This document shows, one piece after another, positions 46,523 through 64,000 of a stretch of 64,000 nucleotides of DNA (the first letter of the stretch is position 1; every line of letters begins with the position of its first letter). The DNA comes from Microbacterium aurum (GTDB lineage: Bacteria > Actinomycetota > Actinomycetes > Actinomycetales > Microbacteriaceae). The position numbers and the translations under genes were made by a program. The notes below the pieces were generated by a model that had not been told where the DNA came from, searched no databases, and saw only the letters and a program-made list of their open reading frames with translations. The DNA is taken from assembly GCF_016907815.1 (NCBI RefSeq), contig NZ_JAFBCQ010000001.1:434001-498000 (forward strand), written 5' to 3'.

Positions 46523-48436
46523 TCACGTGCTTGCCTTCCGCGTCGACGCGGCGCGCAGGCCGTTGAGGATCACGATCACCTCGGCGATCTCGTGCACCAG
46601 CACCACCGCCGCAAGCCCCAGGACGCCAAAGAGGGCGAGCGGGAGCAGGGCGGTGATGATCAGCAGCGACAGGATGATGTTCTGGTTGATGATGTGCCGC
46701 CCCCGACGGGCATGGGCGAACGCGCGCGGGAGAAGCCGCAGATCGTGACCGGTGAAGGCCACGTCGGCCGACTCGATCGCGGCGTCGGAGCCCGTCGCGC
46801 CCATCGCGATCCCGATGTCCGCGGCGGCCAGCGCAGGGGCGTCGTTGATGCCGTCGCCGATCATCGCGACCGGCCCCTTCGCACCGAGCTCTGCGATCGC
46901 GGCGGCCTTGTCTTCGGGGCGCAGCTCGGCGCGGACGTCATCGATCCCTGCATGCGCAGCGAGGGCGCGGGCGGTGCGGGCGTTGTCGCCGGTGAGCATG
47001 GTCACCCCGATGCCCTGGGTCGCGAGGGTGCGGACCACTTCAGGGACCTCGGGGCGCAGCTCGTCGCGGACGCCGATCGCGGCGACCGGGACGCCGCCGC
47101 GGTGGACGATCACGACTGTCATGCCCTGCTCCTCCAGCCCCGCGACCCGGTCGCCGAGGGTCCCGGCGTCGAGCCAGCGCGGGCTGCCGACGGTGATCCG
47201 CGCGCCGGCGAGCTCGCCCTCGATGCCGTGCCCGGCCTGCTCGGTCACGCCCTCCGCCGCAGGGGCATCCGGCGCTGCGGCGGTGATCGCGGCGGCGAGG
47301 GGGTGGGTGCTGTGCTGCTCCAGAGCGGCCGCCCATGCCAGCGCCTCCGCCTCGCTCACACCGTCCACGGTGAGGACGGCGGTGACGGCGGGCTCGTTGC
47401 GGGTGAGGGTGCCGGTCTTGTCGACGGCGACGTGGCGGATCACGCCGAACCGCTCGAACGCGGCACCGGACTTGATGATCACGCCGAACTTGCTCGCCGA
47501 GCCGATCGCCGCGACCACGGTCAGCGGCACGGAGATCGCCAGTGCGCAGGGCGATGCCGCGACCAGCACGACCAGGGCGCGGGTGATCCACAGCTCCGGG
47601 TCGCCGAGCAGCGAGCCGATGATCGCGACCAGGGCGGCGAGGATCAGCACGCCCGGGACGAGAGGGCGGGCGATGCGGTCGGCGAGGCGGGCGCGGTCGC
47701 CCTTCTCCGCCTGAGCCTTCTCCACGAGGTCGACGATCGTGGTCAGTGAGTTGTCGGTGCCTGCCGCGGTCGTTTCGACCTCCAGTGCCCCGGCGGTGTT
47801 GATTGCGCCGGCGGAGACGGCATCGCCGGGTTCGACCTCGACCGGGATCGACTCCCCGGTGATCGCGGACGTGTCCAGGCTGGAACGTCCCGTGCGGACG
47901 ACGCCGTCGGTCGCGATCCGCTCACCCGGCCGCACCAACATCAGCTGCCCGACAGCCAGATCCTTCGCGGCGACCTCGACCGAGACGCCGTCGCGGCGGA
48001 TGGTGGCGGTCTCCGGGACGAGCTTGAGCAGTGCCCGCAGCCCGCCGCGGGCACGGTCCATCGCCTTGTCCTCCAGCGCCTCGGCGATCGAGTACAGGAA
48101 TGCCAGCGCTGCGGCCTCCTCGACGTAGCCGAGGATCACCGCGCCGACCGCGCTGATGGTCATCAGCAGCCCGATGCCGAGCTTGCCCTTGAAGAGGTTC
48201 CGGATCGCGCCCGGCGTGAACGTCGACGCGCCCAGCAGCAGGCCGATCCAGAACAGCACCAGCGCAGGGATCTCCATCCCGGACCACTCCAGCGCCAGAC
48301 CGGTGAGGAACGCCACACCGGAGAAGACCGGGACCATGATCCCGCGGTCCCGCCACCAGGGGCGCTCCGCCTCCTCGGCCTCTTCGCCGACTGCGGTCTC
48401 AGGCTCGTCGTGCTCGCAGCCGCACGCCGCGCTCAC
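46523..48436 (-). CDS. ctpG: P1B-type metal efflux ATPase (CtpG-like, Cd/Pb)
   Basis: 637 residues from the GTG at 48436, which overlaps the cmtR stop (GTGA). The N-terminus is Cys-rich and acidic (AACGCEHDEPE) without a full metal-binding domain. Core motifs: ITGESIP, the membrane motif SPC in ASPCALAISVP, DKTGTLT, and MLTGDNA/GDGINDAPAL. The SPC motif and the VHEIAEVIVILNGLR in the last helices match CtpG-like ATPases. Pairing with cmtR supports Cd(II)/Pb(II) export. About 130 bp of spacer separates it from merA, tail to tail. Confidence 0.9.
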   Translation of the reverse strand: MSAACGCEHDEPETAVGEEAEEAERPWWRDRGIMVPVFSGVAFLTGLALEWSGMEIPALVLFWIGLLLGASTFTPGAIRNLFKGKLGIGLLMTISAVGAVILGYVEEAAALAFLYSIAEALEDKAMDRARGGLRALLKLVPETATIRRDGVSVEVAAKDLAVGQLMLVRPGERIATDGVVRTGRSSLDTSAITGESIPVEVEPGDAVSAGAINTAGALEVETTAAGTDNSLTTIVDLVEKAQAEKGDRARLADRIARPLVPGVLILAALVAIIGSLLGDPELWITRALVVLVAASPCALAISVPLTVVAAIGSASKFGVIIKSGAAFERFGVIRHVAVDKTGTLTRNEPAVTAVLTVDGVSEAEALAWAAALEQHSTHPLAAAITAAAPDAPAAEGVTEQAGHGIEGELAGARITVGSPRWLDAGTLGDRVAGLEEQGMTVVIVHRGGVPVAAIGVRDELRPEVPEVVRTLATQGIGVTMLTGDNARTARALAAHAGIDDVRAELRPEDKAAAIAELGAKGPVAMIGDGINDAPALAAADIGIAMGATGSDAAIESADVAFTGHDLRLLPRAFAHARRGRHIINQNIILSLLIITALLPLALFGVLGLAAVVLVHEIAEVIVILNGLRAASTRKAST

Positions 48437-48792
48437 GCGCCCGCTCCCGTCCCGCAGCAGCCCGGCACCGTGCACGAAGCGTCCATGCAGGGCGCGTGCT
48501 CGTCCACCGCGAGCGTCACGTCCACCAGCGCGGTCAGCGCCGCCGCGAGGTGCGGGTCCGCGATCTCGTAGCGCGTCTGCCGCCCTTCCGGCTCGGCGAC
48601 CACGATGCCGCAGTCGCGCAGGCAGGTCAGGTGGTTCGAGACGTTCGAGCGGGTCAGCTCCAGCTCACGCGAGAGCACCGCCGGGTAGCTGGGGCCGTCG
48701 AGCAGGGTCATCAGTATCCGGGAGCGCGTCGGGTCCGCCATGGCCCGGCCGAGCCGGTTCATGACGTCGAGACGTGGAGCAATGGTCAGCAT
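48433..48792 (-). CDS. cmtR: ArsR/SmtB-family Cd/Pb sensor CmtR
   Basis: 119 residues from the ATG at 48792. The winged helix has PTRSRILMTLLDG and LTRSNVSNHLTCLRDCG. Cysteines 57, 61 and 102 fall at exactly the positions known as ligands in M. tuberculosis CmtR, and the flanking sequences match. Metal binding releases it from its operator. The C-terminal tail adds four further cysteines (SCTVPGCC), absent from the classic protein. It overlaps ctpG by four bases. Confidence 0.95.
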   Translation of the reverse strand: MLTIAPRLDVMNRLGRAMADPTRSRILMTLLDGPSYPAVLSRELELTRSNVSNHLTCLRDCGIVVAEPEGRQTRYEIADPHLAAALTALVDVTLAVDEHAPCMDASCTVPGCCGTGAGA

Positions 48793-48793
48793 G

Positions 48794-48809
48794 CACTGAT
48801 CATACAGTG
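48794..48809 (-). promoter_or_regulatory. palindrome at the cmtR start, candidate operator
   Basis: CACTG-N6-CAGTG (48794-48809) sits immediately upstream of the cmtR ATG, where an autorepressor would block the promoter. A GTTGACT motif follows at 48809-48815. The arrangement fits ArsR-family autoregulation; binding is inferred. Confidence 0.6.
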
Positions 48810-48818
48810 TTGACTGAA

Positions 48819-49361
48819 CTAATCCCAGGATGAATAGTGCACCATGCGACATTCGGCCCTACCAGTAACCCCGCGGGCGCGCAGCAGCAGCCCGGCGTTT
48901 TCGAGCGCGCCGAGGACGCGGACGATGCTGGTGGTGTTGCAGGACACCACCCGGGTCAGGTCCCGGCCGAGCGCGGTGGCGTAGTTGGCCTGGGCGACGA
49001 AGGAGTGCCCGGTGGTCGAGTGCGCTTCCCCGCCCTGCACGATCACCTTTACTCCCGCCGCCTGGTAGCGGGGCAGGTTTCCGGCGGCGACGTGCTTGGG
49101 GGTCGTATCGACGATCACGTCGCTCTGCGCGAGGAGATCGTCGAGGGTTCCCTCGGGGCGGATGCCGGTGTCCACCATGCCGCTGTGCGCGTCGGGGGTG
49201 GCGGCGAATACGGGCAGCCGCGGGACGGCGGATTGTATTCGCCAGTCGGTGACGATGTCCGCGACGCCCACCAGGTGCATGTCGGGTTGGGCGTGGACGG
49301 CGTCGGCGACCCTCTTGCCGATCACTCCGTACCCGTTGACGCCGACTCTGATCCTGTCCAT
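48819..49361 (-). pseudogene. truncated archaeal-type (type II) glyceraldehyde-3-phosphate dehydrogenase
   Basis: 180 codons against about 340 for the family. The N-terminal Rossmann motif RVGVNGYGVIGKRVADAV and the catalytic-cysteine segment VVSCNTTSIVRVL are present, then homology ends near 48870 and the reading frame finishes in unrelated residues. The second, phosphate-binding half is missing, so it should be inactive. Such GAPDH genes in Actinobacteria are seen on mobile islands. It follows the aarF gene on the same strand. Confidence 0.85.
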
Positions 49362-49400: not shown

Positions 49401-51056
49401 TCAGGGGCGGGGTCGGCGGCGCCGCAGCGTCCACAGCAGATAGCTGCCGAGGGCGCCGATCGTGCCGGTCCCGGCGCCGATCAGGACGCCTTCCCGGGAG
49501 CGCCATTTCGTGTTCCCGCCGACGAGGGTGCCGATCCCGCTGATCAGCGCGGCGGCGATCATTCCCGCGACGACACGGTTGCCGACGCGTTCGGCGCGCC
49601 CGACGAGAGGTTCCAGCTCCGTCGCGCGCAGGTGCACCTCGAACCCGCCGTCTTCGAGGAGATGCCGGAGCCGGCTCAGGGTGGCGGGCAGCTCGGTGAG
49701 CAGTGCCCCGGTGTCGGCTCCCGCGCGCGCCCATCGCCGGGCCAGAGCCGGCAGGGACAGCTGGGCGCGGGTGAGCTGCTCAGCGTAGGGCTGCAGGGCG
49801 TCGAGCATCTGGAAGTCCGGATCCAGCCGCGCCGCGGTCCCTTCGGCCATCATCAGCACTTTGAACAGCAGCGCCGTCTCCTGCGGAAGGTGCAGCTGGT
49901 GCTGCTGCAGGATGCCGAGCAGCTGCTGGAGCATGATTGCGAGGCTGATCTCCGACAGCGAACGGCCCCGGTAGCGGGCCGTGAACGCGGTGATCGCCTG
50001 CCGCAGCCCTGCCCGGTCGACGACGTCGGCGGTCCGGGAGAGTTCTATCAGGGCGGTGGTGAGGGTGTCCGGGTCGTCGCGGGTGAAGGCGAGCACGATG
50101 CCGGCGAGGCCGTCCGTGGTCTGTTCGGTGAGCTCCCCGACCATCCCGAAGTCGATCAGCGCGAGCGCGCCGTCGGGCTGCACGAACATGTTCCCGGGAT
50201 GGGGGTCGGCATGGAAGAACCGGTTGTCGAACACCATCGTGAGCACGATGTCGGCACCCAGCCGCGCGAGTGCGACCCGGTCGATGCCGGCGGCGTCCAG
50301 GCCCTCCAGGTCGTCGATCCGCACCCCGCTCATCCGCTCCAGGGTCAGCACGCGCGAGGTCGTGGTCTCCCCGTGCACGCGGGGAATCCGCACCCGCGCC
50401 GCGTGGGCGAACTCCTGCGCGAACCGTTCGGCGTTGCGGGCCTCCTGCAGGTAGTCCAGCTCGGCACGCAGCGTGCGGGAGAACTCCTCCACCAGCCCGG
50501 GCAGGTCGTACTGCCGGATGGCATCCCAGCGCCGGTCGGCGCGGTCGGCGAGGTTGCGGAGAATGTCCAGGTCTTCATGCACCTGCGCGACCACGCCGGG
50601 CCGGCGCACCTTCACGACGACCTCGGTGCCGTCGTGAAGAGTTGCCGCGTACGCCTGCCCGATGGACGCCGCCGCCAGCGGCACCGGGTCGAACTGGGCG
50701 AACACGTGCTCTGGGTCGGCGCCGAGCTCTTCACGGAGCACGTCCCGAATGCCCTCCCACGGTGCCGCGGCGACGTCGTCCTGCAGTTTGGCGAACTCGG
50801 CGACCCATGCCGCGGGGAGCAGATCGTGCCGGGTGGAGAGGATCTGGCCCAGTTTCACGAACGTCGGCCCGAGCTCCTCCAACGCGACCCGCACATGCTC
50901 GGGGTTCGTGTAGGGGTCCTCCTGCCGGGCGTGTCCGAGGGCGCCGCGGTGGAACGGCACCAAGCCGCCCAGGCCCAGCACGCCGGCCAGGACGCCGAGT
51001 CCGTGCCGGCGCAGCACGGCCCCGATCTGCCGGTACCGGCTACTCCCCGCGCCCAT
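49401..51056 (-). CDS. AarF/UbiB-family ABC1 kinase-like membrane protein
   Basis: 551 residues. The ABC1 family signature KLGQ is at FVKLGQILSTRHDLLP (about residues 64-80), followed by the A-rich nucleotide loop PLAAASIGQAY, VVVKVRRPG, and the catalytic region FFHADPHPGNMF with the DFG-like IDFGMVG. One or two hydrophobic helices lie at the C-terminus. Homologs support ubiquinone/lipid metabolism; a role in this quinone-type actinobacterium and in a metal island is unknown. It overlaps the AAA gene upstream by one base. Confidence 0.88.
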   Translation of the reverse strand: MGAGSSRYRQIGAVLRRHGLGVLAGVLGLGGLVPFHRGALGHARQEDPYTNPEHVRVALEELGPTFVKLGQILSTRHDLLPAAWVAEFAKLQDDVAAAPWEGIRDVLREELGADPEHVFAQFDPVPLAAASIGQAYAATLHDGTEVVVKVRRPGVVAQVHEDLDILRNLADRADRRWDAIRQYDLPGLVEEFSRTLRAELDYLQEARNAERFAQEFAHAARVRIPRVHGETTTSRVLTLERMSGVRIDDLEGLDAAGIDRVALARLGADIVLTMVFDNRFFHADPHPGNMFVQPDGALALIDFGMVGELTEQTTDGLAGIVLAFTRDDPDTLTTALIELSRTADVVDRAGLRQAITAFTARYRGRSLSEISLAIMLQQLLGILQQHQLHLPQETALLFKVLMMAEGTAARLDPDFQMLDALQPYAEQLTRAQLSLPALARRWARAGADTGALLTELPATLSRLRHLLEDGGFEVHLRATELEPLVGRAERVGNRVVAGMIAAALISGIGTLVGGNTKWRSREGVLIGAGTGTIGALGSYLLWTLRRRRPRP

Positions 51057-51643
51057 CAGCTCACGCCCCTCTCGGCTGGAGTGCCGGCCGATGCTCGTTC
51101 GAGGATGAAGTCGACGCGCGCGTCGGGGGCGAGTGCGGGGACGGTGACGACGGGAAAGCCCAGCTCCTGGTACACCAGCCCGAGCAGGTCGTGGATGCGC
51201 CGCTGCGCGGCGGGGTCCTCGGTGCGCGCGTAGTCGGACGCCAGCGGGAGCAGGTCAAGCAGGAACACCGTCGCGTACCGGGCGCCGGCCAGCGCGCCCA
51301 GCAGGGCGGTGCCGGGGGCGAGGCCGAGGAAGCGGTAGTAGGCGAGCGAGTCCGGCAGAGCACGGTCCAGGAACACGGTCTGTTGCGGGTCGAGGGAGCG
51401 TTCCTGCTCGATCTGCATGTCGACGACGGCGCGCTGGAACTCGCTCTGCCGTGCCCGCACCTCCGCGGTGCTGCGCCCGGTGATCCGTTGCAGGTCGATG
51501 TAGTGGCGGGCGTGCTCGATTGTGGTCGTGTACCCGCGGCCCCGCAGCAGGTTGACCGTGGTGGTCTTGCCCGAGCTGGGACCGCCCGTCACGACGCGCC
51601 AACGGGTGGTCTGTGCGGGCCGCGGCTCCTGGATGCCGGTCAT
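51056..51643 (-). CDS. NadR/Ttd14-like P-loop ATPase
   Basis: 195 residues with Walker A GGPSSGKTT (about 20-28), a helical lid and VFLDRALPDSLAYYRFLG, typical of the AAA_28 group of small ATP/GTP-binding proteins. The substrate is unknown; related proteins phosphorylate small molecules or bind lipids. It starts 14 bp from the CsoR palindrome and runs opposite to csoR, followed by the AarF gene and the GAPDH fragment in one direction. Confidence 0.85.
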   Translation of the reverse strand: MTGIQEPRPAQTTRWRVVTGGPSSGKTTTVNLLRGRGYTTTIEHARHYIDLQRITGRSTAEVRARQSEFQRAVVDMQIEQERSLDPQQTVFLDRALPDSLAYYRFLGLAPGTALLGALAGARYATVFLLDLLPLASDYARTEDPAAQRRIHDLLGLVYQELGFPVVTVPALAPDARVDFILERASAGTPAERGVS

Positions 51644-51656
51644 GACCTCACCCTAC

Positions 51657-51676
51657 ACCCTGTACCCCTACAGGGT
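51657..51676. promoter_or_regulatory. CsoR-type palindrome between AAA ATPase and csoR
   Basis: ACCCTGTA-CCCC-TACAGGGT is a perfect dyad (8-bp arms) and is followed by ATGGTAGATTGT, which contains a plausible -10. GC-rich dyads of this kind are the CsoR operators known in M. tuberculosis and Bacillus. It lies 28 bp ahead of csoR and 14 bp from the divergent ATPase start, so both arms could respond to copper. Confidence 0.8.
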
Positions 51677-51703
51677 ATGGTAGATTGTGGGTGGAGGTGC
51701 GAG

Positions 51704-51988
51704 ATGGCACACGGGTATGTGGACAACAAGCCGGCGCTGCTGGCGCGGCTGAGCCGCGCGGAGGGTCAGGTGCGCGGGATCGCGCGGATGATCGACGAGG
51801 ACGTGTACTGCATCGACGTGCTGACCCAGGTGTCGGCGGCGACGAAGGCGCTGGAGTCCGTCGCGCTGTCGCTGCTGGAAGACCACCTCGCGCATTGCGT
51901 CGCGCAGGCGACCGCCGAAGGCGGCCCGCTCGCGGAGGAGAAGCTCCGCGAGGCGAACGCCGCGATCGCGCGCCTCGTGCGCTCCTAA
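51704..51988 (+). CDS. csoR: copper-sensing repressor CsoR
   Basis: 94 residues from the ATG at 51704 with GGAGG upstream. The all-helical CsoR fold has Cu(I) ligands C36 (VYCIDVL), H61 and C65 (HLAHC), the numbering of the characterised M. tuberculosis protein, plus the second-shell residues nearby. Copper binding should release the palindrome at 51657. It leads csoR-copZ-copA. Confidence 0.95.
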   Translation: MAHGYVDNKPALLARLSRAEGQVRGIARMIDEDVYCIDVLTQVSAATKALESVALSLLEDHLAHCVAQATAEGGPLAEEKLREANAAIARLVRS

Positions 51989-52034
51989 CGTCGTCCCCAC
52001 TCACATCGTTCAACGCTCTTGAAGGGAGCACATC

Positions 52035-52394
52035 ATGACCGGACAGGGATTCCAGGACCTCGGCCTGCAGGCGACCAGCACCGGCGGTGGCTGCGCCTGT
52101 TGCAGCCCCACCTCCCACGCCACGGCAGCCACCGACACCGGCGCGCCGGCGCAGCAGACGGCGGCGGGTGAGACCGTGTCGGCGCAGTTCCTGGTGGAGG
52201 GGATGACCTGCGCGCACTGCGTGCGTAGCGTCACCGAGGAGGTCTCCGCGATCGACGGTGTCTCCGACGTCGCGGTCGATCTGCACGCCGGTGGCGTGTC
52301 CACGGTGACGGTGTCCAGCGCGACGCCGGTGGATGCGGAGCGGGTGCGGGCGGCGGTGGAGGAGGCCGGGTACAGCCTCGCCGCAGCCTCATGA
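52035..52394 (+). CDS. copZ: CopZ-like copper chaperone with Cys-rich N-terminus
   Basis: 119 residues: an N-terminal segment with GGGCACCS (about 18-25) and an Ala/Thr linker, then one heavy-metal-associated domain with VEGMTCAHC and DAVAEAGY-like end ([11 protein letters not shown]). It should deliver Cu(I) to CopA. Longer than the usual 70 residues because of the extra Cys-rich part, which may be a second copper site. It overlaps copA by four bases (ATGA). Confidence 0.93.
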
Positions 52395-54670
52395 GCACGC
52401 TGGACGTCGATCTCGACATCACCGGGATGACCTGCGCGTCGTGCGCGACGCGGGTCGAGCGGAAGCTGAACAAGCTGCCCGGGGTGGAGGCGACGGTCAA
52501 CTTCGCCACCGAGAAGGCCCGCGTGCACTCGGAGGCCCCGGTGCCGGTGGAGGAGCTGATCGCGGCGGTCGAGCAGGCGGGGTACGGAGCGAGCCTCCCA
52601 GCCCCGCCTGTGCCCGACACGGCTGAGCAGACCATCCCGCGGGACGATGAGCTGGCGTCGCTGCGGCAGCGGCTGATCGTCTCGGCGGTGCTGGCGGTGC
52701 CGGTCGCGGTGCTGTCGATGATCCCCGCCCTGCAGTTCACCTACTGGCAGTGGCTCACGCTCACCCTGGCCGCGCCGGTGGTGGTGTGGGGGGCGTGGCC
52801 GTTCCACCGCGCCGCGGCGATCAATGCCCGGCACGGGGCGGCGACGATGGACACTCTGATCAGCGTCGGGGTGCTGGCCGCGTTCGGCTGGTCGCTGTAC
52901 GCGCTGTTCTTCGGCGGTGCGGGGATGCCGGGAATGCGGATGAGCGTCACCTTCGTCGGCACCCCGCAGGCCGGTGGCCACGAGGTGTACCTGGAGGTCG
53001 CCGCGCTGGTGACCGTGTTCATCCTCCTCGGCCGCTACCTCGAGGTTCGTGCCAAGCGGCAGTCCGGCGAGGCCCTGCGCGCCCTGCTGGAGCTCGGCGC
53101 CAAGGACGCAGTGATCCTCCGCGAAGGCACTGAGCAGCGCGTCCCCGTCGCACAGCTCGTTCCGGGTGATGTCGTGGTGGTGCGGCCGGGTGAGAAGATC
53201 CCCGCCGACGGCCTCGTCACCGAGGGAATGTCCGCGGTGGACGAGTCGATGCTGACCGGCGAGTCCGTGCCGGTCGAAGTCGCCCCCGGCTCCCGCGTGG
53301 TCGGCGCGACTGTGAACACCGGCGGGCGCCTGCTCGTGCAGATCACCCGCGTCGGCGCCGACACCGAGCTGGCCCGGATGGCGCGGCTGGTCGAGGAGGC
53401 GCAGACCGGCAAGGCCCAGGTGCAGCGCCTCGCCGACCGGGTGTCGGCCGTCTTCGTCCCCATCGTCATCGTCCTCGCCCTGGCCGCGTTCGCCGGGTGG
53501 CTGATCGCGGGGGCGCCCTTGGAGGTCGCCTTCACCGCCGCGGTGACCACCCTGATCATCGCCTGCCCGTGTGCGCTGGGGCTGGCGACGCCGACCGCTC
53601 TGCTGGTCGGCACCGGCCGCGGCGCCCAGCTGGGCATCCTCATCCGCGGACCCCAGGTGCTCGAGCAGACCCGCCGCATCGACACCGTCGTGCTCGACAA
53701 GACCGGCACCATCACCGCCGGCACCATGACCGTCACCGGCATCCACCCCGCTCCCGGCACCGATGAGGCGGAGCTGATCCGGTTCGCCGCGGCGCTCGAG
53801 CACGGCTCCGAGCACCCCATCGGCCGCGCCATCACCGCCGCAGCCGACGGCCCGACGGATGCCGTGGAGTCATTCGCCGCCGAGGCCGGTCAAGGCGTGC
53901 AGGGCATCGTCGACGGCCGCCTGGTCGCCGCCGGCCGCGCCTCCTGGATCACCACCCAATGGGCGCTCCCCATCCCCGCCGAGCTCGCCGCGACCATCGC
54001 GGCGGACGAGGCGGCGGGGGCGACGGTGACGGTGGTGGCGTGGGACGGGCAGGTGCGCGGGGCGATCAGCGTCGCCGACACCATCAAACCCACCAGCCGT
54101 GAGGCGGTCGCACGGCTCCGGGAGCTCGGGTTGACCCCGATCCTGCTCACCGGCGACAACCCCGGCGCCGCCCGCGCGATCGCCAACCAGGCCGGGATCG
54201 AGGACGTCCGCGCCGGGGTCACCCCGCAGGGCAAGCTCGACACCATCCGCGACCTGCAGGCCGCGGGCCGGGTGGTCGCGATGGTCGGCGACGGCGTCAA
54301 CGACGCCGCAGCCCTCGCCGCCGCCGACCTCGGGATCGCGATGGGCACCGGCACCGACGCGGCCATCACCGCCGCGGACCTGACCATCGTCTCCGGCGAC
54401 CTGATGCTGGTCCCGGACGCGATCCGGCTGGCCCGCCGCACCCTGGGCACGATCAAGGGGAACCTGTTCTGGGCGTTCGCGTACAACGTCGCCGCGATCC
54501 CGGTCGCGATGCTCGCCCTGCTCAACCCCATCCTCGCCGCCGCGGCAATGGCGTTCAGCAGCGTGTTCGTCGTCACCAACAGCCTCCGCCTGCGCCGCTT
54601 CCGCCCCCTGCCCACCCCGACCCGTGCCGGCGCCCCCGCCACCCGAGAGCCCGCGCCCGTCCAGGCCTAA
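52391..54670 (+). CDS. copA: Cu(I)-exporting P1B-1 ATPase CopA
   Basis: 759 residues. One N-terminal metal-binding domain (ITGMTCASC), about eight membrane helices, TGESVPVE, the CPC motif in [23 protein letters not shown], and the HP dipeptide segment GSEHPIGRA, then GDNPGAARA and [18 protein letters not shown]. It exports Cu(I) from the cytosol. The stop lies one base before the left end of the IS481-type element. Confidence 0.97.
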
Positions 54671-54731
54671 CTGTACTGACCGGACACATTGGTTGAAGCA
54701 GGCAGGGTGAGAGGTCACCGATGGTGCCGCG

Positions 54732-56348: not shown

Positions 56349-57335
56349 ATGTCTCACGCCAACGCAGCACTCACCCCGCGCCACCGCCTGATCGTCGCCC
56401 GTCTGGTCATAGACGAGGGCTGGCCGATCAGCGAGGTAGCCGCTCGCTTCCAGGTTTCCTGGCCAACCGTCAAACGCTGGTCCGAGCGTTATCGCAATGG
56501 CCAATCCATGCAGGACAGAAGCTCACGACCCCATCGCTCGCCGAACAGGACCATCGCCAGGATCGCGAAACGCTGTATCAGCTTGCGTTTGCGCCTGAGA
56601 GAGGGACCCGTGCAGTTGGCCTGTCGGCTCGGGATCGCCCCGTCGACCGTCCACAGGATCCTCGTTTCAGTCCATCTCAACCGGCTCACGCACGTCGACC
56701 GCGCCACCGGAGAACCGATCCGCCGCTACGAGCACGACCATCCCGGCGCGATGCTGCATGTCGATGTGAAGAAGCTCGGCAACATCCCCGACGGGGGCGG
56801 CTGGCGTTATGTCGGCCGGCAGCAAGGCGCGAAGAACCGCGCCGCCACACCCGACAAACCCAGGAACAAGTACCGGGACCCGTTGATGGGCAAGGCCTAT
56901 GTCCACACCGTCATCGACGACCACTCCCGAGTCGCCTACGCCGAGATCCACGACGACGAAACCGCCCAAACGGCCACCGCCGTCCTGGTCCGGGCCGTCG
57001 AATGGTTCAACGCCCGCGGCGTGATCGTCGAACGGGTCCTGTCCGACAACGGCGGCGCCTATCGCTCACACCTGTGGCGTGACACCTGCGCAGAACTCGG
57101 CATCCGGCACAAGCGCACCCGCCCGTATCGGCCGCAGACCAACGGAAAGATCGAGCGCTTCCATCGCACCCTGGCTGACGGCTGGGCCTATGCCCGCTGC
57201 TACACGTCTGAGGCCGAACGACGGGGCGAGCTCGAGGGCTGGTTGCACTACTACAACCAGCACCGGCCCCACACGGCCTGCGGGAACCAGCCGCCGTTCT
57301 CACGCTTGATCAACGTCCCCGGTCAGTACAACTAG
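56349..57335 (+). CDS. IS481-family DDE transposase
   Basis: 328 residues from the ATG at 56349 with GGAG upstream. A helix-turn-helix region (1-110, WPISEVAARFQVSWPTVKRW) is followed by an rve/DDE domain with MLHVDVKKLG (first Asp), VLSDNGGAYRS (second Asp) and NGKIERFHRTLADGW (Glu), and ends with LHYYNQHRPHTACGNQPPFSR. It appears intact and ends five bases beyond the right inverted repeat. Confidence 0.95.
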   Translation: MSHANAALTPRHRLIVARLVIDEGWPISEVAARFQVSWPTVKRWSERYRNGQSMQDRSSRPHRSPNRTIARIAKRCISLRLRLREGPVQLACRLGIAPSTVHRILVSVHLNRLTHVDRATGEPIRRYEHDHPGAMLHVDVKKLGNIPDGGGWRYVGRQQGAKNRAATPDKPRNKYRDPLMGKAYVHTVIDDHSRVAYAEIHDDETAQTATAVLVRAVEWFNARGVIVERVLSDNGGAYRSHLWRDTCAELGIRHKRTRPYRPQTNGKIERFHRTLADGWAYARCYTSEAERRGELEGWLHYYNQHRPHTACGNQPPFSRLINVPGQYN

Positions 57336-57395
57336 CTGTTGCTGGCCAGGAGGTTGTTGACGGGCGCTCGGCTCGTCGAGCGGGATGATAGTCGG

Positions 57396-57870
57396 GTGGC
57401 TCCGGTTATCTATCGGGAGGAAGGGCTCCATCCCGGCTTGTCCGAGTGGGTGACGTGCGCGTGGACATACGAGCGGGCGTACAGCGATGAGGATGTCGAG
57501 ACGGTGATGCCTGACGGCACGGTCGAGCTCGTCGTCCAGCTTGCCGCCCCCTACACGGACGCGGGCGTTGAGCTACCGACATGTGTCGCGATCGGGACAC
57601 TCGATCGTCCGCTAGTTCTGACAGCCGAGGGCGCCATGCAAGTCTGGTGCGTCAGGTTCCCGTGGTGGGGCCTAGCCCCGTTCGGGGACGTCAGTGCCTT
57701 CGCCGGACGACAATGGGCCGCGGCAGACGACGTCTTCGACGCGGGTCTTGTCGCCGGCGTCCGCGACGCGGCCTCGTCCGCGCACCCGGTGGACGGGCTG
57801 AACCGGGTGCTGCTGTCGCACCTATTGGCGTGGACGATCGGTCCCGCACCCCTCCGGGAGGCGGGACGGG
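57396..57870 (+). pseudogene. truncated AraC-type regulator (sensor half only)
   Basis: From the GTG at 57396 about 158 codons read APVIYREEGLHPGLSEWVT, VMPDGTVELVVQL and VWCVRFPWWGLAPFGD, which is the N-terminal DUF6597-like sensor domain of AraC-family regulators. The frame then enters sequence belonging, on the other strand, to resB, so the DNA-binding half is gone. A remnant beside the transposon. Confidence 0.75.
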
Positions 57871-57873
57871 CGA

Positions 57874-58197
57874 TCACGCCCCGGAGAACCACACCGACCC
57901 GAACACGTCGTGCAGCTGCAGCAGGTCCACCGCCCACATCCAGCCCGGGTTGGTCTTGTCGAACTGGATCACCCCGTTCGGGTCGGAGGAGCGTTGCGGG
58001 ATCAACGACCCGGGGATCGCGGCCACCGCGAGCAGCAGCAACAACACCAGGGCGGTGCGCATGCTGGTCAGCTGCCGCCACGCCCACCGCGCCCACCCCG
58101 ACACGCTCAGGCGCGGATTCGTGCGCTCCTCCACCGGCCGGTCGACGTGATCGGCGGGCAGCTGCGGGGCCTGCTCACTGCGGATCGACACGCGCAT
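57874..58197 (-). pseudogene. resB: truncated cytochrome c biogenesis protein ResB
   Basis: 107 codons. RQLTSMRTALVLLLLLAVAAIPGSLIPQRSSDPNGV with a membrane helix and VFGSVWFSGA match the beginning of ResB, which normally exceeds 450 residues. The rest has been replaced by the AraC fragment at about 57870. Its start overlaps the lgt stop by 23 bases, so it was the last gene of the M23-lgt-resB run before the deletion; ccsA, expected next, is absent. Confidence 0.85.
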
Positions 58198-59065
58198 CCC
58201 CCCTCCCCCGGACGGGTGCGCGGCGGCGGGCGCGCCAGGAGGCGTGGGCGAGCAGCCCGACCCCCAGTACGGCGGCCACCAGGGCGGTGAGCACGTTCGC
58301 TTTCAGCCCGCCGGCGAGCAGCTCGGTGGGATCCAGCCGGATGGACTCCAGCACCGCCCGCCCCGCCCCGTACCACAGCAGGTACACGCCCAGACTCCGC
58401 CCGGCGCCCAGCGTGATCCGGCCGTGCCGGCGGCGGTGCTGCTCGAGCAGCACGATCACGGCGGCACCGGCCAGGTTCCACAGCAGCTCGTACAGGAACA
58501 GCGGATGAAACAGGGTCCCCGCCGGGGTCCCCGGCGGGATCGCGGGGGCTGAGGGGTCGATCTGCAGCCCCCACGGTAAGGTGGTGGGCGGGCCGAACAG
58601 CTCCTGGTTGAAGTAGTTCCCCAGCCGTCCCACCGCCTGGGCGACCAGCATCCCCGGCGCGAGCGCGTCCAGGAACAGCAGCACCGGGATCCCGGCGCGA
58701 CGGGTGCCGATCACAATCCCGACCAGCCCGCCCAGGATCGCACCGAAGATTGCGATCCCGCCTTCCCAGATGTAGAGCACCCGCCACAGGTCCGCGCCAG
58801 GGAAGAAGTAGTCGCCGGGATGGGTGAGCACATGGTAGATCCGGGCGCCGAGGATCCCGAACGGCACCGCCCACATCGCCACATCCACCACGACCCCGGC
58901 CGGGTGCCCGACCGCCCGCAGCCGACGGCCGGTGATCAGCACCGCCAGCACGATCCCGGCCAGGATCGCCAGCGCGTAGAACCGGATCTGGAACGGACCG
59001 ACCTGAACGAAGCTGATCCCCGGGCTCGGGATCAGCGCCGGAGCCACAATGAGGAGTGCGTCCAT
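58175..59065 (-). CDS. lgt: prolipoprotein diacylglyceryl transferase
   Basis: 296 residues from the ATG at 59065. Seven hydrophobic segments, and the Lgt signature in GRLGNYFNQELFG, the catalytic-region IRFYALAILAGIVLAV and the end-helix LLWYGAGRAVLE. It attaches diacylglycerol to the lipobox cysteine of prolipoproteins. A copy inside an island is probably additional to the housekeeping gene and may serve the DUF305 and F510_1955 lipoproteins nearby. It overlaps the M23 stop by one base (TGATG). Confidence 0.95.
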   Translation of the reverse strand: MDALLIVAPALIPSPGISFVQVGPFQIRFYALAILAGIVLAVLITGRRLRAVGHPAGVVVDVAMWAVPFGILGARIYHVLTHPGDYFFPGADLWRVLYIWEGGIAIFGAILGGLVGIVIGTRRAGIPVLLFLDALAPGMLVAQAVGRLGNYFNQELFGPPTTLPWGLQIDPSAPAIPPGTPAGTLFHPLFLYELLWNLAGAAVIVLLEQHRRRHGRITLGAGRSLGVYLLWYGAGRAVLESIRLDPTELLAGGLKANVLTALVAAVLGVGLLAHASWRARRRAPVRGRGDARVDPQ

Positions 59066-59906
59066 CAGGGCCTCACCCTCGCCGGAAGCCACGCCAGCGG
59101 GTCCACCGCTTCGCCTCCGGTGCGGATCTCGAAGTGCAGGTGTGCGCCGAAGCTGCGTCCACTGTCCCCGACCCGGCCGACCATCTGCCCCACCCGCACG
59201 GTCTGTCCCGGGGTCAGGGCGAGGGACCCTTCCCGCATGTGCGCGTACGCGCTTTCCACGACCTGCCCGTCGATCTCGTGCCGGATCACCACGTACACCC
59301 CGTACGCGCCGCCCTGCTCCGTCTCGGTGGTGACCACCCCGTCGGCGATCGCCTGGATCGGGGTGCCGATCCCGGGGGTCATGTCCAGTCCGGCATGGAA
59401 ATTTGAGCAGGACGGGCATGGCGGGGTGCGGTACCCGAACGTGCTGCTGATCGGCACTCCCACGGTGAACGGCCACTGCACCGCCGATGCCGGGTCGTTG
59501 GTGAATGTGTCCGCGGTGTGCGCGTACGACTCGGTCCCGACGGGGCGGTCACCGCCACCGTGTAGTCCCCGCGCACCATCACCGTCCCGGTGACGGTGTC
59601 GGGGGTGGTGAACGACTGGGCGCGCACCGGGGTGCGGGTCGCCTCGACGGCGAACACCGGCTCCGGCGTCAACGGGATCAGCAACGGCAGTCCGGCGATC
59701 GACGCGACTGGGAGCATCACCGCGCCGGCGAGCATCCGGGATCGGGTGAGCGTGCGGCGCGGCGCGTGTCGAGGTGTCCGGGCGGCACGGGTGGGCCGAC
59801 GGCGTCGATCGCGTCGCGTCTGGACGGGTGGGGAAGACAGGGCGGCTCTCGCCGCACGGCGCGTTCCGGTACCGGGAGTCGGGGTGGAGGGGGCGGGTTC
59901 GGGCAT
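59065..59906 (-). pseudogene. M23 (LytM-type) peptidase, single-base frameshift
   Basis: The upstream frame starts MPEPAPSTPTPG at 59906 with a membrane anchor (MLAGAVMLPVASIAGLPLLI) and runs to TVAVTAP near 59545. The downstream frame continues VGTESYAHTADTF, FGYRTPPC, HAGLDM, and the metal-binding GAHLHFEI. Joining needs one base, at the run of four G on the plus strand (59542-59545). Either a true slipped-base pseudogene or a sequence error; the product would be a wall hydrolase or regulator of one. Confidence 0.85.
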
Positions 59907-60129
59907 ACAAGACTTTCCTGGATGAGGGGGACGATGAAGGTGCGCACGGTCGCCGTCACACGGTCCAACCGGGAGCCGCGGCCCGGAGTGCACGGCGAGA
60001 ATCCGGGATCGGATCACCCATGGCGCTGCCGCAGACGGGTCGCGCTCGCCTGCGGGCCGCACATCGTGGACCGTCGGCGACATCACGCGCCGGCGGCGGC
60101 TCAGGCGGCGGGCGCGGGCGGGGTGCTGA

Positions 60130-60561
60130 TCAGGTGCGGCTGATCGACAGCACGATCAGGGAGGGCCGCAGAAGAGGCGACCCGGACGTGAACGAGCTCG
60201 ACCTGCCGGGGAGGGATCGCAGCCACGCCAGCAGCGACATCCACCCGTCCCGGGCCGGGAGCACCAGGATGAGCAGGGTCAGCAACGCGAGCAGACACGT
60301 CACGGCAGCGAAAGCATGAGACGTCCCGCAGACCGTCTCATCGCACGAGGGCGTCACCACCCCGCTGACCAGGACATCAGCGGCGGCATCGGGGGCCGCA
60401 ACGACTGCGGAGGCGGACACGACAGTGCCCGCCTGGTCCTCTTCCAGACTCAGCGAATGCATCGCAAGCAGCCCCGCGATGATCGCGGTCACCGCGGCCA
60501 GGTAGAACCACAGGGCACGCCGGGACCCGAGTGCCCGCCGTCGCGCCACCACCTGGTTCAC
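60130..60561 (-). CDS. DUF6153 membrane protein (first copy)
   Basis: 143 residues from the GTG at 60561 (VNQVVARRRAL), chosen by analogy with its paralog, which also starts VN, and because AAGGGG precedes it. Two hydrophobic segments (about 17-34 and 83-102), with the small extracytoplasmic loop carrying TPSCDETVCG, and the C-terminal LIVLSISRT found also in the paralog. DUF6153 proteins occur in copper-related clusters; function unknown. It leads the minus-strand run DUF6153-M23-lgt-resB. Confidence 0.85.
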   Translation of the reverse strand: MNQVVARRRALGSRRALWFYLAAVTAIIAGLLAMHSLSLEEDQAGTVVSASAVVAAPDAAADVLVSGVVTPSCDETVCGTSHAFAAVTCLLALLTLLILVLPARDGWMSLLAWLRSLPGRSSSFTSGSPLLRPSLIVLSISRT

Positions 60562-60623
60562 CGTCGACGCCCCTTCCTCGATCACGCCCAGCATACCCCG
60601 GGCGGGTAGCCATCCCCGAAGCG

Positions 60624-60653
60624 ATACCCATCCTGGATACCCCGGATGGGTAT
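60624..60653. promoter_or_regulatory. CsoR-like palindrome between divergent DUF6153 genes
   Basis: ATACCCATCC-N10-GGATGGGTAT, a perfect 10-bp dyad, is followed by ATGCTGAGTGGTAGGG. The GGGTAT ends match the edges of known CsoR operators and of the palindrome at 51657. Together with the two divergent genes this is the likely shared, copper-responsive control point of the module. Inference from sequence. Confidence 0.65.
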
Positions 60654-60749
60654 ATGCTGAGTGGTAGGGGGCACCCGCTCCCGTGCGTGGTGTTCTGACC
60701 GTGTCGCGGAGGCAAGGCACCGCTACCCTGGACGGGAAGGAGGTCGGTC

Positions 60750-61220
60750 GTGAACGTGATTCGCTCGCACGCGCGTCTGACCCCCGGGGTGCGACGGCTC
60801 CTGCTGGCCGCTCCGATCGCCCTGGCGATCATCACCGGGCTGCTGTCCATGCACGTCCTGACCGGTTCCCACCAGCCCGCCCTGGCATCAGAGACCAGCG
60901 CGATGAGCACGCACAGCCAGGTCGGCTCCGCACCAGCCGCCGCCGACGATACGCCGATGACCGCAGCTGCGGCGGAGGGCGCTGGAGGGCATTGCCAGGA
61001 CGGGTGCGGCAGCCCTGCGGGGATGCCGGATCACTCGATGCTGATGATGGTGTGCGTGCTGGCGCTGCTGGCCGCGGTGATCGTCCTGCTCGCCCCGACG
61101 TCCCGTGCCCTTCTCACATACGCCGTAGCCCGCTCGCGCTCCCATACCCGGACTCTGCTGGTCGGATTGCCGCATCCCCGCCCGCCTTCACTGCTTGTCC
61201 TGTCCATCAGTCGCACCTGA
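60750..61220 (+). CDS. DUF6153 membrane protein (second copy)
   Basis: 156 residues from the GTG at 60750 with AAGGAGG six bases ahead. Two hydrophobic segments (about 18-38 and 94-112), a His/Cys-containing loop (GHCQDGCGSPAGMPDHSM) and the terminal LLVLSISRT shared with the first copy. Paralog encoded divergently; the Met, His and Cys residues suggest copper binding. It is followed by the DUF305 lipoprotein gene. Confidence 0.85.
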   Translation: MNVIRSHARLTPGVRRLLLAAPIALAIITGLLSMHVLTGSHQPALASETSAMSTHSQVGSAPAAADDTPMTAAAAEGAGGHCQDGCGSPAGMPDHSMLMMVCVLALLAAVIVLLAPTSRALLTYAVARSRSHTRTLLVGLPHPRPPSLLVLSISRT

Positions 61221-61320
61221 TTCCGCCTGAACCCCGGCGACCCTTGCCGGGGATGCTGCACCCTGCCCTCCCGGGCACTGAATCAGACCCTCACCGACTG
61301 AATAGACAAGGACACCCCTG

Positions 61321-61935
61321 ATGCGTTTTCGTACTCTCACGCTGACCGCCGGCGCCCTGGCCACCGTGCTCGTGCTCGCCGGCTGCGCCCCCACCGACGG
61401 CACCATGCCCGGCATGGACCACGGACCCGGGGGGATGACCAGCACCGCCCCCTCCCAGTCCGCCGCCGCGTTCAACGCCGCGGACGAGATGTTCGTGACC
61501 ATGATGATCCCGCACCACCAGCAGGCCATCGAGATGGCCGATCAGATCCTCGCGAAAGACGGCATCGACGAGCGAGTCGTCTCCCTCGCCGAGCAGATCA
61601 AGGCCGCACAGGACCCGGAGATCCAGACCATGAAGGGCTGGCTTCAGGAGTGGGGCGTCCCGTACGACGACTCCATGTCCGGGATGGACGGCATGGACAT
61701 GGGCGGCGGGATGATGTCGGAGGACGACATGGCCGCTCTGGATGCCGCGACCGGGGTCGAGGCGACCCGCCTGTTCCTGAACGGCATGATCGCTCACCAC
61801 CAGGGCGCCGTGACGATGGCGCAGTCGGTGCTCACCGACGGACAGAACCCGGACGTGGCCGCCCTCGCGCAGCAGATCATCGACGGGCAGACCGCCGAGA
61901 TCACCACGATGCAGGACATCCTCGCCAGCCTCTGA
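61321..61935 (+). CDS. DUF305 lipoprotein
   Basis: 204 residues. Signal peptide with lipobox LVLAGC, a Met/His-rich stretch (GTMPGMDHGPGGM), and two DUF305 repeats, MMIPHHQQAIEMA and MIAHHQGAVTMA, with the conserved His-His pairs. DUF305 proteins are linked to copper tolerance at the cell surface; the exact chemistry is not established. It should be lipidated by the Lgt encoded across the divergent promoter. Confidence 0.93.
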   Translation: MRFRTLTLTAGALATVLVLAGCAPTDGTMPGMDHGPGGMTSTAPSQSAAAFNAADEMFVTMMIPHHQQAIEMADQILAKDGIDERVVSLAEQIKAAQDPEIQTMKGWLQEWGVPYDDSMSGMDGMDMGGGMMSEDDMAALDAATGVEATRLFLNGMIAHHQGAVTMAQSVLTDGQNPDVAALAQQIIDGQTAEITTMQDILASL

Positions 61936-62052
61936 CCCGGTACCCCTCGGACGGGACCCGCGCTCCCGATGCCGGTCCCGTCCGAGGCCCCACCCTCGAC
62001 CCCTGTGCGGTCACCGGTATCCGGCGTACCCGCACGGAAAGGACCTCCGTTC

Positions 62053-62913
62053 ATGATCTCTCCCACCACCCGCAGACTGGCGATCACGGCCACCGTCACC
62101 GTCGCGCTGCTGCTCACGGGCTGCAGCACCACCCCTGCGGAGCCCGATGCCCCCGCGGGCACCGCGGCCGGGTTCGGGCATGTGCACGGCATCGTCGACG
62201 CCGGTGACAGCACCGTGCTGCTGGGCACCCACACCGGCCTGTACACGCTGGGCGAGGACGGCACCGTCACCGGCCCGGTCGGTGGCATCGACCTGGACGC
62301 GATGGGACTGACCGCTACCGGTGACACCCTCTACGCGTCCGGGCACCCCGGCCCGTCCACCCCGGCGGAGCTCGGCGCCCCCAACCTCGGCATCATCCGC
62401 AGCCTCGACGCCGGCGCCTCGTGGGAACCGGTCGCGTTCACCGGGGAAGAGGACTTCCACGTCCTCACCGTCACCGGCGACGGCACCCTGTACGGGATCG
62501 GATCCTCCCGGCTGCTGCTGCGCACCAGCAGCGACGGCGGGCAGAGTTGGGCGGACGGTGCCGAGCTGCCCGCCGTCGACCTGGCCGCCGCGACCGACGG
62601 CACCCTGTACGCCGCCACCCAGGACGGGCTGCAGCACAGCACCGACGGTGGCGCCACCTTCACCCCGGCGCCGGACGCGCCAGTGCTGTACCTGGTGGAG
62701 ACCGACCCAACCGGTGGGGTGGTCGGAGTGGACACCGACGGGACGTTGCGACGCCTAGTCGGCACCGGCTGGGAGAACGTCGGCACCACCACGGGAACCG
62801 TCCAAGCCCTCGGGGTCACCGGGGACGGTGCGATCGTCCTGGTCGATGACCGCGGCGTGGTCTGGATCCGCGACACCACCGCCACCGTTCTCATCCCGGC
62901 GGCAACACCATGA
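62053..62913 (+). CDS. F510_1955-family beta-propeller lipoprotein
   Basis: 286 residues from the ATG at 62053. Signal peptide with lipobox LLLTGC, then BNR/Asp-box-like repeats ([30 protein letters not shown]) forming a small propeller; the motif [11 protein letters not shown] is typical of the F510_1955 glycosylhydrolase-like family. Catalysis is not shown for these proteins. Frequent in actinobacterial metal islands beside DUF305, so a copper-linked role is inferred. Confidence 0.85.
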
Positions 62914-62971
62914 CCACCGTCATTCGCACCTGGCGCGACCCGAGCGGTCGCGGATCGGAAGGAGACCGACC

Positions 62972-64000
62972 ATGACCCCCACACCGGCACCCCCCGCGTG
63001 GGCGCACCGCACCACTGATGCCACCGCCGAGCAGTTGGCGGCGGTGGATGCGTGGTGGCGGGCGGCGAACTATCTGAGCATCGGGCAGATCTACCTGCAG
63101 GGTAACCCGCTGCTGCGCCACCGCCTCAGCCGGGACGACATCAAGCCGCGGCTGCTGGGGCATTGGGGCACCACCCCGGGCCTGAACTTCCTCTACGCCC
63201 ACCTGAACCGCGCCATCCGCGACCGCGACCTGAACACCCTGTACGTGACCGGGCCCGGGCACGGCGGACCCGGCATGGTCGCCAACGCCTACCTCGACGG
63301 CACCTACACCGAACGCTACCCGGGCATCGACCGCACCGAAGAGGGGCTGCGGGCGCTGTTCCGGCAGTTCTCCTTCCCGGGCGGGATCCCCTCGCACGCG
63401 TCCCCGGAAACGCCCGGGTCGATCAACGAGGGCGGGGAGCTGGGCTACTCCCTCGTGCACGCCTACGGGGCCGCGTTCGACAACCCCGACCTGCTGGTCG
63501 CCTGCGTGATCGGTGACGGGGAGGCGGAGACCGGGCCGCTGGCGACCGCGTGGCACGGCAACAAGTTCCTCAACCCCGCCCATGACGGGGTGGTGCTGCC
63601 GATCCTGCATCTGAACGGGTACAAGATCGCCAACCCGACCGTGCTGTCCCGCATCCCCGAGGAAGAGCTGGTCGCGCTGCTGCGCGGCTACGGCCATCAC
63701 CCCCACGTCGTCACGGTCGGCTTCGATGGCGAGACCCCGCAGGAGTCCCACGCGACGTTCGCGGCGGTCCTGGATGCGGTGCTGGATGAGATCGCGGACA
63801 TCAAGGCCGCCGCGGCGGCCGGGACGCTGGAGGGGCGGCCGGCGTGGCCGGCGATCGTGCTGCGCAGCCCGAAGGGGTGGACCTGCCCGAAGATCATCGA
63901 CGGTCTGCCGGTGGAGGGCACCTGGCGGGCACACCAGGTGCCGCTCGCCGAGGTCCGCGACAATCCCGAGCACCTGCGGATCCTCGAGGACTGGCTGGCG
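62972..64000 (+). CDS. xfp: phosphoketolase, cut by window end
   Basis: 343 codons of a protein normally near 800. ATG at 62972 behind [72 protein letters not shown] and [10 protein letters not shown] (thiamine-diphosphate binding) are all typical. It splits xylulose- or fructose-phosphate into acetyl phosphate and a shorter sugar. It follows the lipoprotein genes directly, giving an unexpected metabolic gene in a metal island. Confidence 0.95.

Follow-up and report, generated by a model that had tools for sequence, protein, structure and literature searches.

The 64,000-nucleotide stretch of Microbacterium aurum analysed here (the window; G000:C1:434001-498000 of a 3.41-Mb genome in a single contig) holds a copper island of a known kind, in part decayed. 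Its unusual part is the pairing of a phosphoketolase gene with a P1B-type ATPase gene, together with a type II glyceraldehyde-3-phosphate dehydrogenase (GAPDH), and it is this carbon-metabolism cargo that lifts the finding above the known island kind. Copper toxicity is usually countered by efflux, oxidation and sequestration. From the anatomy of the locus we infer, leaning slightly towards this view, a mobile island under CsoR-type control that would provide a bypass for copper-poisoned glycolysis. More tentatively, and with a confidence somewhat short of even, we suggest that such islands of the Actinobacteria, and partly of the Proteobacteria, carry a portable set of central carbon enzymes (phosphoketolase, type II GAPDH, phosphoglucomutase/GH65 and in some cases aldolase) linked to CPD- or CPH-type ATPases, a set that would have been selected because copper poisons the GAPDH of the host, so that replacement would operate besides efflux.

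A phosphoketolase in a copper operon

The phosphoketolase gene (62972..64000, running on to genome position 499434; + strand), found by profile search, encodes a full-length protein of 820 amino acids (aa), of which residues 19-803 align with solved enzymes including 8io8. It is directly followed by the gene of an ATPase with a CPD motif in the place of the CPC of copper ATPases (genome 499431-502055) and then by a multicopper oxidase (MCO) gene (genome 502048-503574), both outside the window. The order of the right arm is DUF6153-CopM-F510_1955-phosphoketolase-CPD ATPase-multicopper oxidase. The gap between F510_1955 and phosphoketolase is 58 bases, the reading frames of phosphoketolase and ATPase as well as those of ATPase and oxidase overlap, and the whole string is packed like one operon. 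A preliminary description of this DNA had seen a divergent copper and envelope module at 57874..64000. The families it named (Lgt, M23, DUF6153, DUF305, F510_1955 and phosphoketolase) were all recovered by profile searches, and its readings of copper handling and of CsoR-type control sites are supported; the bounds were too narrow, as the operon continues with the CPD ATPase and the oxidase, and both the phosphoketolase-ATPase pairing and the type II GAPDH had been missed.

Phosphoketolase matches occur in 212 of the 398 genomes of the family, eight of which have a copy at least 88% identical to that of the window, the next best being 78% identical. F510_1955 lies directly upstream in seven of these eight (match ends 116-137 bases apart); in the eighth, G268, it is not in view and the ATPase is a remnant of 68 aa. 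At three loci (L241, L251 and L227) F510_1955 directly precedes the same ATPase without a phosphoketolase. Among the best 80 phosphoketolase loci listed from named genomes, two are of the window type: L133 and L134, contigs of Microbacterium sp. 67-17 and of a Cryobacterium metagenome-assembled genome, which L316 and a locus of genome G438 (L282), respectively, resemble. The remaining 78 are free of the module and served as control loci. The five copper-linked phosphoketolases of a first tree formed one clade (SH-aLRT 100). Ratios of nonsynonymous to synonymous substitutions (dN/dS) were 0.13-0.16 for phosphoketolase, 0.18 for the ATPase and 0.34-0.42 for F510_1955. A whole-genome scan gave one phosphoketolase match in the genome of the window; G002, a genome of the same genus, has a second one elsewhere. 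Among the papers listed in searches on phosphoketolase with copper stress, copper operons or ATPase clusters, none deals with the link, judging by titles and the beginnings of abstracts; this search did not extend to type II GAPDH and copper.

Phosphoketolases of at least three lineages pair with CPD ATPases

Nine genomes of the family (L310, L311, L315, L320, L321, L323, L325, L333 and L334) have a phosphoketolase of a second lineage (63-67% identical) behind a CPD ATPase, in the reverse of the gene order seen in the window. The two lineages are far apart in the tree. The second phosphoketolase of G438, located upstream of csoR (L313), groups within the clade of the window. Close to the pair, eight of the nine loci have DUF305, a multicopper oxidase or CsoR, and L315 shows a weak multicopper oxidase match only. 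Of 20 neighbourhoods picked for 63-71% identity, 14 are without a close CPD ATPase.

Plasmids extend the picture. In the 16 regions that were opened from 30 hits listed, phosphoketolase is present in eight; six of these proteins join the second lineage and two, identical to each other and from Mycolicibacterium, fall elsewhere. This makes at least three phosphoketolase lineages that have a CPD ATPase as neighbour, the gene order being found both ways round. On a Xanthobacteraceae contig (L211), a CPD ATPase with 51% identity adjoins a phosphoketolase on the opposite strand.

Adaptation of the enzyme itself was also considered. Copper-hardening through loss of cysteines is unsupported (5.7 vs 5.8 Cys per 800 residues), and methionine content lends it no support either, with 7.1 Met per 800 residues in the window lineage and 16.0 in others, but 18.2 in the second lineage. 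As an observation of its own, phosphoketolases of the window lineage are Met-poor (5.9-7.9 per 800 residues, vs 10.0-22.7 in 67 others), which does not hold for the second lineage.

Type II GAPDH and further sugar enzymes

Of a type II GAPDH the window retains a stub of 180 aa, the N-terminal half (48819..49361, - strand; NF003251, 206 bits with a cut-off of 185). It spans positions 2-165 of the 343 of the profile and, over 162 aa, shares 71% identity with a copy on a Rhodococcus plasmid; the same stub is found in G002. Next to it lies an ABC1/UbiB-type kinase gene (49401..51056, - strand; Pfam ABC1), relatives of which occur near type II GAPDH in L310, L333 and L334.

Type II GAPDH is present in 17 of 29 loci with a phosphoketolase linked to copper or CPD genes, a count in which near-copies occur, one of the 17 is the stub of the window, and five plasmid loci are linked through the ATPase only; the stub of G002 lies outside the piece that was counted, and on a Pseudarthrobacter defluvii plasmid the gene lies just beyond the counted stretch. 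After near-copies had been merged by hand, 13 of 19 linked loci had it. It was found in none of 58 copper loci without phosphoketolase, in none of the 93 phosphoketolase loci where no ATPase reaches 60% identity with that of the window, and in one of eight plasmid CPD loci without phosphoketolase. A phosphoglucomutase/GH65 fusion occurs in 17/29 linked, 0/58 copper and 3/93 phosphoketolase control loci, and all nine second-lineage loci read ATPase-phosphoketolase-(phosphoglucomutase/GH65)-type II GAPDH. Two plasmids of Rhodococcus have type II GAPDH after the CPD ATPase.

An independent sample was drawn by type II GAPDH alone (35 plasmid records from Actinobacteria, Proteobacteria and others), from which seven new regions were opened. 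Six of them show a metal ATPase within 8 kb, with CPD in three cases and CPH in the other three; a close phosphoketolase is present in three of the seven. On plasmids of Corynebacterium comes and C. marinum (L354, L355), a multicopper oxidase, CueP, a two-component system, a heavy-metal-associated (HMA) protein, a CPH copper ATPase, DUF305 and type II GAPDH are followed on the opposite strand by fructose bisphosphate aldolase, phosphoglucomutase/GH65, phosphoketolase and a copper-binding protein. Rhodococcus pyridinivorans Y6 has phosphoketolase, phosphoglucomutase/GH65, a CPD ATPase and type II GAPDH, then M23, Lnt and CcsB. Regions without phosphoketolase are those of Paracoccus and Methylocystis, with a CPD ATPase near type II GAPDH, and of Hoeflea, with a CPH ATPase and a multicopper oxidase near it. 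On an Acidovorax plasmid (L357), type II GAPDH is accompanied by a UbiB-type kinase, acetate kinase, phosphoribosyl pyrophosphate (PRPP) synthetase and a distant phosphoketolase relative.

The CPD-type ATPase

In the ATPase that follows phosphoketolase, CPC, the P1B-1 criterion, is replaced by CPD, and the N-terminus is rich in histidine. Among the loci examined, and counting readable motifs only, CPD was found in 24 of 24 ATPases with at least 65% identity and CPC in 11 of 11 below 65%. The first 16 plasmid relatives opened all have CPD. Further CPD ATPases were met at 51-56% identity (L211, L358, L359), and CPH takes the place of the motif in L207, L313, L354, L355 and L360.

CsoR-type control

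A csoR gene (51704..51988, + strand; PF02583) is located 8.6 kb from the divergent module. Its product matches the solved CsoR 4adz (3.7e-31) with the YCID and HLxHC (HLAHC) stretches kept; we take 4adz to be the Streptomyces lividans protein and these stretches to hold its Cys-His-Cys copper ligands. The genes of a CopZ-like heavy-metal-associated protein (52035..52394, + strand; Pfam HMA) and of CopA, a copper ATPase by Pfam with a CPC motif (52391..54670, + strand), follow.

For the S. lividans CsoR operator, the rule is TAC-9 bases-GTA with G-tracts (PMC3902906). The form that we searched was ATACCC-N5-GGGTAT with at most two mismatches. Two sites lie between the divergent arms, one an exact TAC-9 bases-GTA match (60637..60653, + strand) and one with a single mismatch (60593..60609, + strand); a third, also with one mismatch, precedes csoR (51662..51678, + strand). 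The window has four matches at up to two mismatches (0.51 expected; none of 100 shuffles reached four). On the forward strand of its genome, the operator pattern gave 23 matches at this threshold and a control pattern 13; weak matches therefore mean little. Strict sites number 66 in 1.22 Mb of copper-gene neighbourhoods, 53 of them at most 700 bases upstream of a searched gene; their density is 54/Mb in copper loci vs 4.1/Mb in the 78 control loci (9.0/Mb in the first 27 controls, mostly Actinobacteria). A scan of the divergent region for sigma-70-like promoters found none. Judging from the sites, csoR-copZ-copA and the divergent region are probably under CsoR-type control, with CsoR binding and induction by copper predicted for both.

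DUF6153, CopM and F510_1955

The right arm begins with DUF6153 copy b (60750..61220, + strand), which scores 37.8 bits with PF19650 (cut-off 27.7). Copy a, on the left arm (60130..60561, - strand; profile search; start uncertain at 60561, 60585 or 60594), scores 27.4 bits as a protein and 28.2 in the genome scan. We found no paper on DUF6153 in a literature search. The DUF305/CopM gene (61321..61935, + strand) encodes a predicted lipoprotein (lipobox LAGC) with 112.9 bits for the CopM profile NF049983 (cut-off 90) and the solved CopM 5ffa as structural relative (4e-23). F510_1955 (62053..62913, + strand; lipobox LTGC) is a beta-propeller-like lipoprotein by NF045728 (186.8 bits, cut-off 175) with Ycf48-like relatives (1.5e-5). 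In PMC3948429, F510_1955 is described as having no known function. Five histidines and one methionine are invariant in all 42 aligned sequences, a pattern more suggestive of a metal site than of the glycosylhydrolase after which the protein is named; it may be a copper-binding propeller.

Recurrence was followed in 149 genomes of the order, 19 of which have a DUF6153 match at E <= 0.001 (11 over the cut-off). The 19 loci around it include DUF305 in 15, a copper-type ATPase in 12, CsoR in 6, F510_1955 in 5, Lgt in 1 and M23 in none, and the 22 loci around F510_1955 include DUF305 in 14, DUF6153 in 12, the ATPase in 10, a multicopper oxidase in 8, Lgt in 4 and M23 in 3. The 78 control loci around other phosphoketolases had no DUF305, F510_1955 or DUF6153, CsoR and Lgt once each, and an ATPase nine times. 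DUF6153, DUF305/CopM, F510_1955 and copper ATPases are found together time and again and make up a known kind of copper island.

Decay of the left arm, and the island setting

The left arm is decayed. Its ResB piece (57874..58197, - strand; profile search) is reduced to the first ~105 residues, whereas G002 encodes a ResB of 548 aa followed by CcsA-like and TlpA-like genes; identity with G002 starts at 57882, beside a DUF6597 fragment and an IS481 transposase gene (56349..57335, + strand; NF033577, 341 bits). The transposase and the fragment (window 56349-57914) mark the break, where ResB and cytochrome c genes are missing relative to G002. The M23 peptidase gene (59065..59906, - strand; PF01551) is frameshifted, its G002 counterpart being open. 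Lgt, the prolipoprotein diacylglyceryl transferase (58175..59065, - strand), is the sole whole envelope gene of this arm: it scores above the family cut-off (PF01790, 204 bits; TIGR00544, 153 bits) and aligns to the solved Lgt 5azb in the GRLGN and ELxG stretches, the SFHGG stretch of 5azb being unaligned. The host genome has three Lgt genes. At least two Lgt genes are commoner where F510_1955 exceeds its cut-off (9/23 vs 12/126 genomes; Fisher p 0.001, uncorrected for relatedness), and an Lgt in the copper island of Pseudarthrobacter AG30 provides a precedent (PMC6256500).

With these data, the divergent module looks different from its preliminary description as a self-contained surface copper system with its own lipidation and no assigned mechanism. 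With ResB and M23 broken, we reject the idea that the window encodes the whole of a surface system; csoR lies at a distance, and in the three sets of copper loci Lgt is seldom close to the anchor gene (1 of 19, 4 of 22 and 2 of 17); nor can CopM, CsoR, CopZA and the multicopper oxidase be called without mechanism. A wall peptidase, an Lgt and lost cytochrome c maturation had been read from the left arm; ResB is cut and M23 frameshifted there, and both are whole in G002. The CsoR-like dyad between the arms exists, but as two sites. The C-terminal tail shared by both DUF6153 copies is also real, but it is of a family-wide type (46 of the 53 sequences longer than 90 aa, out of 55 collected) and the copies are 34% identical, by which a recent duplication is ruled out. 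Gene-set conservation across the order is supported for DUF6153, DUF305, F510_1955 and the ATPases, while Lgt and M23 recur rarely or not at all.

The island is mobile: G002 shares 11.9 kb of it (57882 to 69765 in window coordinates) at 99.2% identity in another genome context, and a second common stretch of 3.5 kb (51127-54671) is 99.9% identical. On either side, the copper genes are bordered by arsenic or other metal genes (window 46523-48852; L029:5908-7327), namely ArsR-type regulators, a P1B ATPase and an SBF/ACR3-like transporter, which makes this a multi-metal island. CopC, LspA, TlpA, CcdA and a whole ResB are encoded 14.6-19.6 kb downstream of the window (L029:14635-19595), so that genes for the maturation of lipoproteins and cytochrome c accompany copper genes in varying mixes. 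Two lipoprotein enzymes, LspA and an Lgt, are both located near copper genes in the host genome.

Proposed function and alternatives

Phosphoketolases use fructose-6-phosphate and xylulose-5-phosphate as substrates and produce acetyl phosphate. According to our proposal, copper would load CsoR, which would then leave its operators. Outside the membrane, CopM, F510_1955 and the oxidase, all predicted lipoproteins, would bind and oxidise copper, and the two ATPases would export it. Cu(I) that inhibits GapA would cause hexose and pentose phosphates to accumulate; the co-induced phosphoketolase would split fructose-6-phosphate and xylulose-5-phosphate, thereby draining the copper-blocked pools, and acetate kinase would convert the acetyl phosphate into ATP, with GapA bypassed. 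In fuller islands, type II GAPDH would replace GapA and the phosphoglucomutase/GH65 fusion would supply glucose-6-phosphate. Acetate kinase is encoded in the genome of the window, in G002 and in G013. In Staphylococcus aureus, Cu(I) binds and inhibits GapA (PMC6350627), and copper raises fructose-6-phosphate, ribose-5-phosphate and ribulose-5-phosphate (PMC10249872). If the proposal is correct, islands protect metabolism as well as exporting copper, which would single out the kind of damage inside the cell that is relevant in nature; gene deletions could then be used to test which copper damage limits growth. Three poorly known families, DUF6153, F510_1955 and the CPD-type ATPases, gain a context.

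Several points weigh against a copper-linked bypass. The type II GAPDH of the window is a stub, and enzymes of this type also have a catalytic cysteine. The CPD ATPase occurs without phosphoketolase in 4 of the 58 copper loci and 8 of the 16 plasmid regions, and in the sample of 149 genomes of the order phosphoketolase stands beside F510_1955 only in the window's own genome. As to the controls, only 48 of the 78 loci from named genomes extend for 8 kb in both directions, and L211, counted among the 93, has its CPD ATPase at 51% and no type II GAPDH; the sampled genomes are related, so that the counts are not independent. Extra GapA gave S. aureus no added copper tolerance (PMC6350627).

Other points on this side also favour a general stress or low-oxygen energy module, in which phosphoketolase, phosphoglucomutase/GH65, type II GAPDH, the UbiB-type kinase and a metal ATPase would serve dormancy or hypoxia, and copper genes would be close by since respiratory enzymes draw on metal ATPases. 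Universal or general stress proteins neighbour the pair on five plasmids, and several plasmids, from Rhodococcus and Mycolicibacterium, combine this with few copper genes in the region seen; the UbiB-type kinase is present in 4 of the 29 linked loci, that of the window included; the Acidovorax set, possibly a general stress version, has no metal ATPase within 8 kb; and ATACCC-N5-GGGTAT at up to two mismatches was not found in any of the nine second-lineage loci, one of which (L315) has an operator-like site with a 4-base spacer. We nevertheless consider such a module unlikely, given that the phosphoketolase of the window lineage sits among CopM, F510_1955 and multicopper oxidase behind CsoR-type sites, that all second-lineage pairs but L315 are near DUF305, a multicopper oxidase or CsoR, and that the Corynebacterium type II GAPDH comes directly behind a copper ATPase and DUF305.

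That phosphoketolase is a mere passenger, caught up in a mobile copper island and of no use for copper tolerance, would fit the mobility of the 11.9-kb stretch and the single clade formed by the window lineage, but appears improbable: purifying selection on phosphoketolase is as strong as on the ATPase, at least three lineages stand beside the same ATPase type, and type II GAPDH co-occurs. Arsenate detoxification, with GAPDH making 1-arseno-3-phosphoglycerate for ArsJ-type export and the nearby arsenic genes as partners, is very improbable despite the ArsR-type regulator adjoining the GAPDH stub and the SBF/ACR3-like transporter with ArsR at L029:5908-7327, since no neighbour of type II GAPDH matched an ArsJ model in the six loci scanned (the neighbours being an EamA transporter in L310 and L311, an alcohol dehydrogenase-like protein in L315, a TlpA-like protein in L072 and proteins of no family in L316 and L323), no ArsJ is annotated beside GAPDH in the plasmid regions, and phosphoketolase, GH65 and the copper ATPase would be left unexplained.

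Relation to known systems

Copper islands with csoR-copZA are known from Actinobacteria. One is that of Pseudarthrobacter AG30, in which csoR-copZ-copA lies beside a multicopper oxidase, Lgt and CopD (PMC6256500), so that CsoR, CopZ, CopA, multicopper oxidase and Lgt occur together in both; DUF6153, F510_1955, phosphoketolase and GAPDH are unnamed there. DUF305 is the Cu(I)-binding CopM family, and the protein of the window resembles Synechocystis CopM (PMC4335983) in exceeding the family profile cut-off and in having solved CopM as its best structural relative, whereas the Synechocystis system is copMRS and ours a predicted lipoprotein in a CsoR-type operon. CPD is known for three rhizobial ATPases of Rhizobiales subgroup VIc (PMC5552934), which share with the window's ATPase the replacement of CPC or CPH by CPD but have few N-terminal histidines, in contrast to its His-rich N-terminus. 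Finally, the full-length phosphoketolase is like those of the phosphoketolase shunts of Bifidobacterium and others; there it belongs to a sugar pathway, here to a copper operon.

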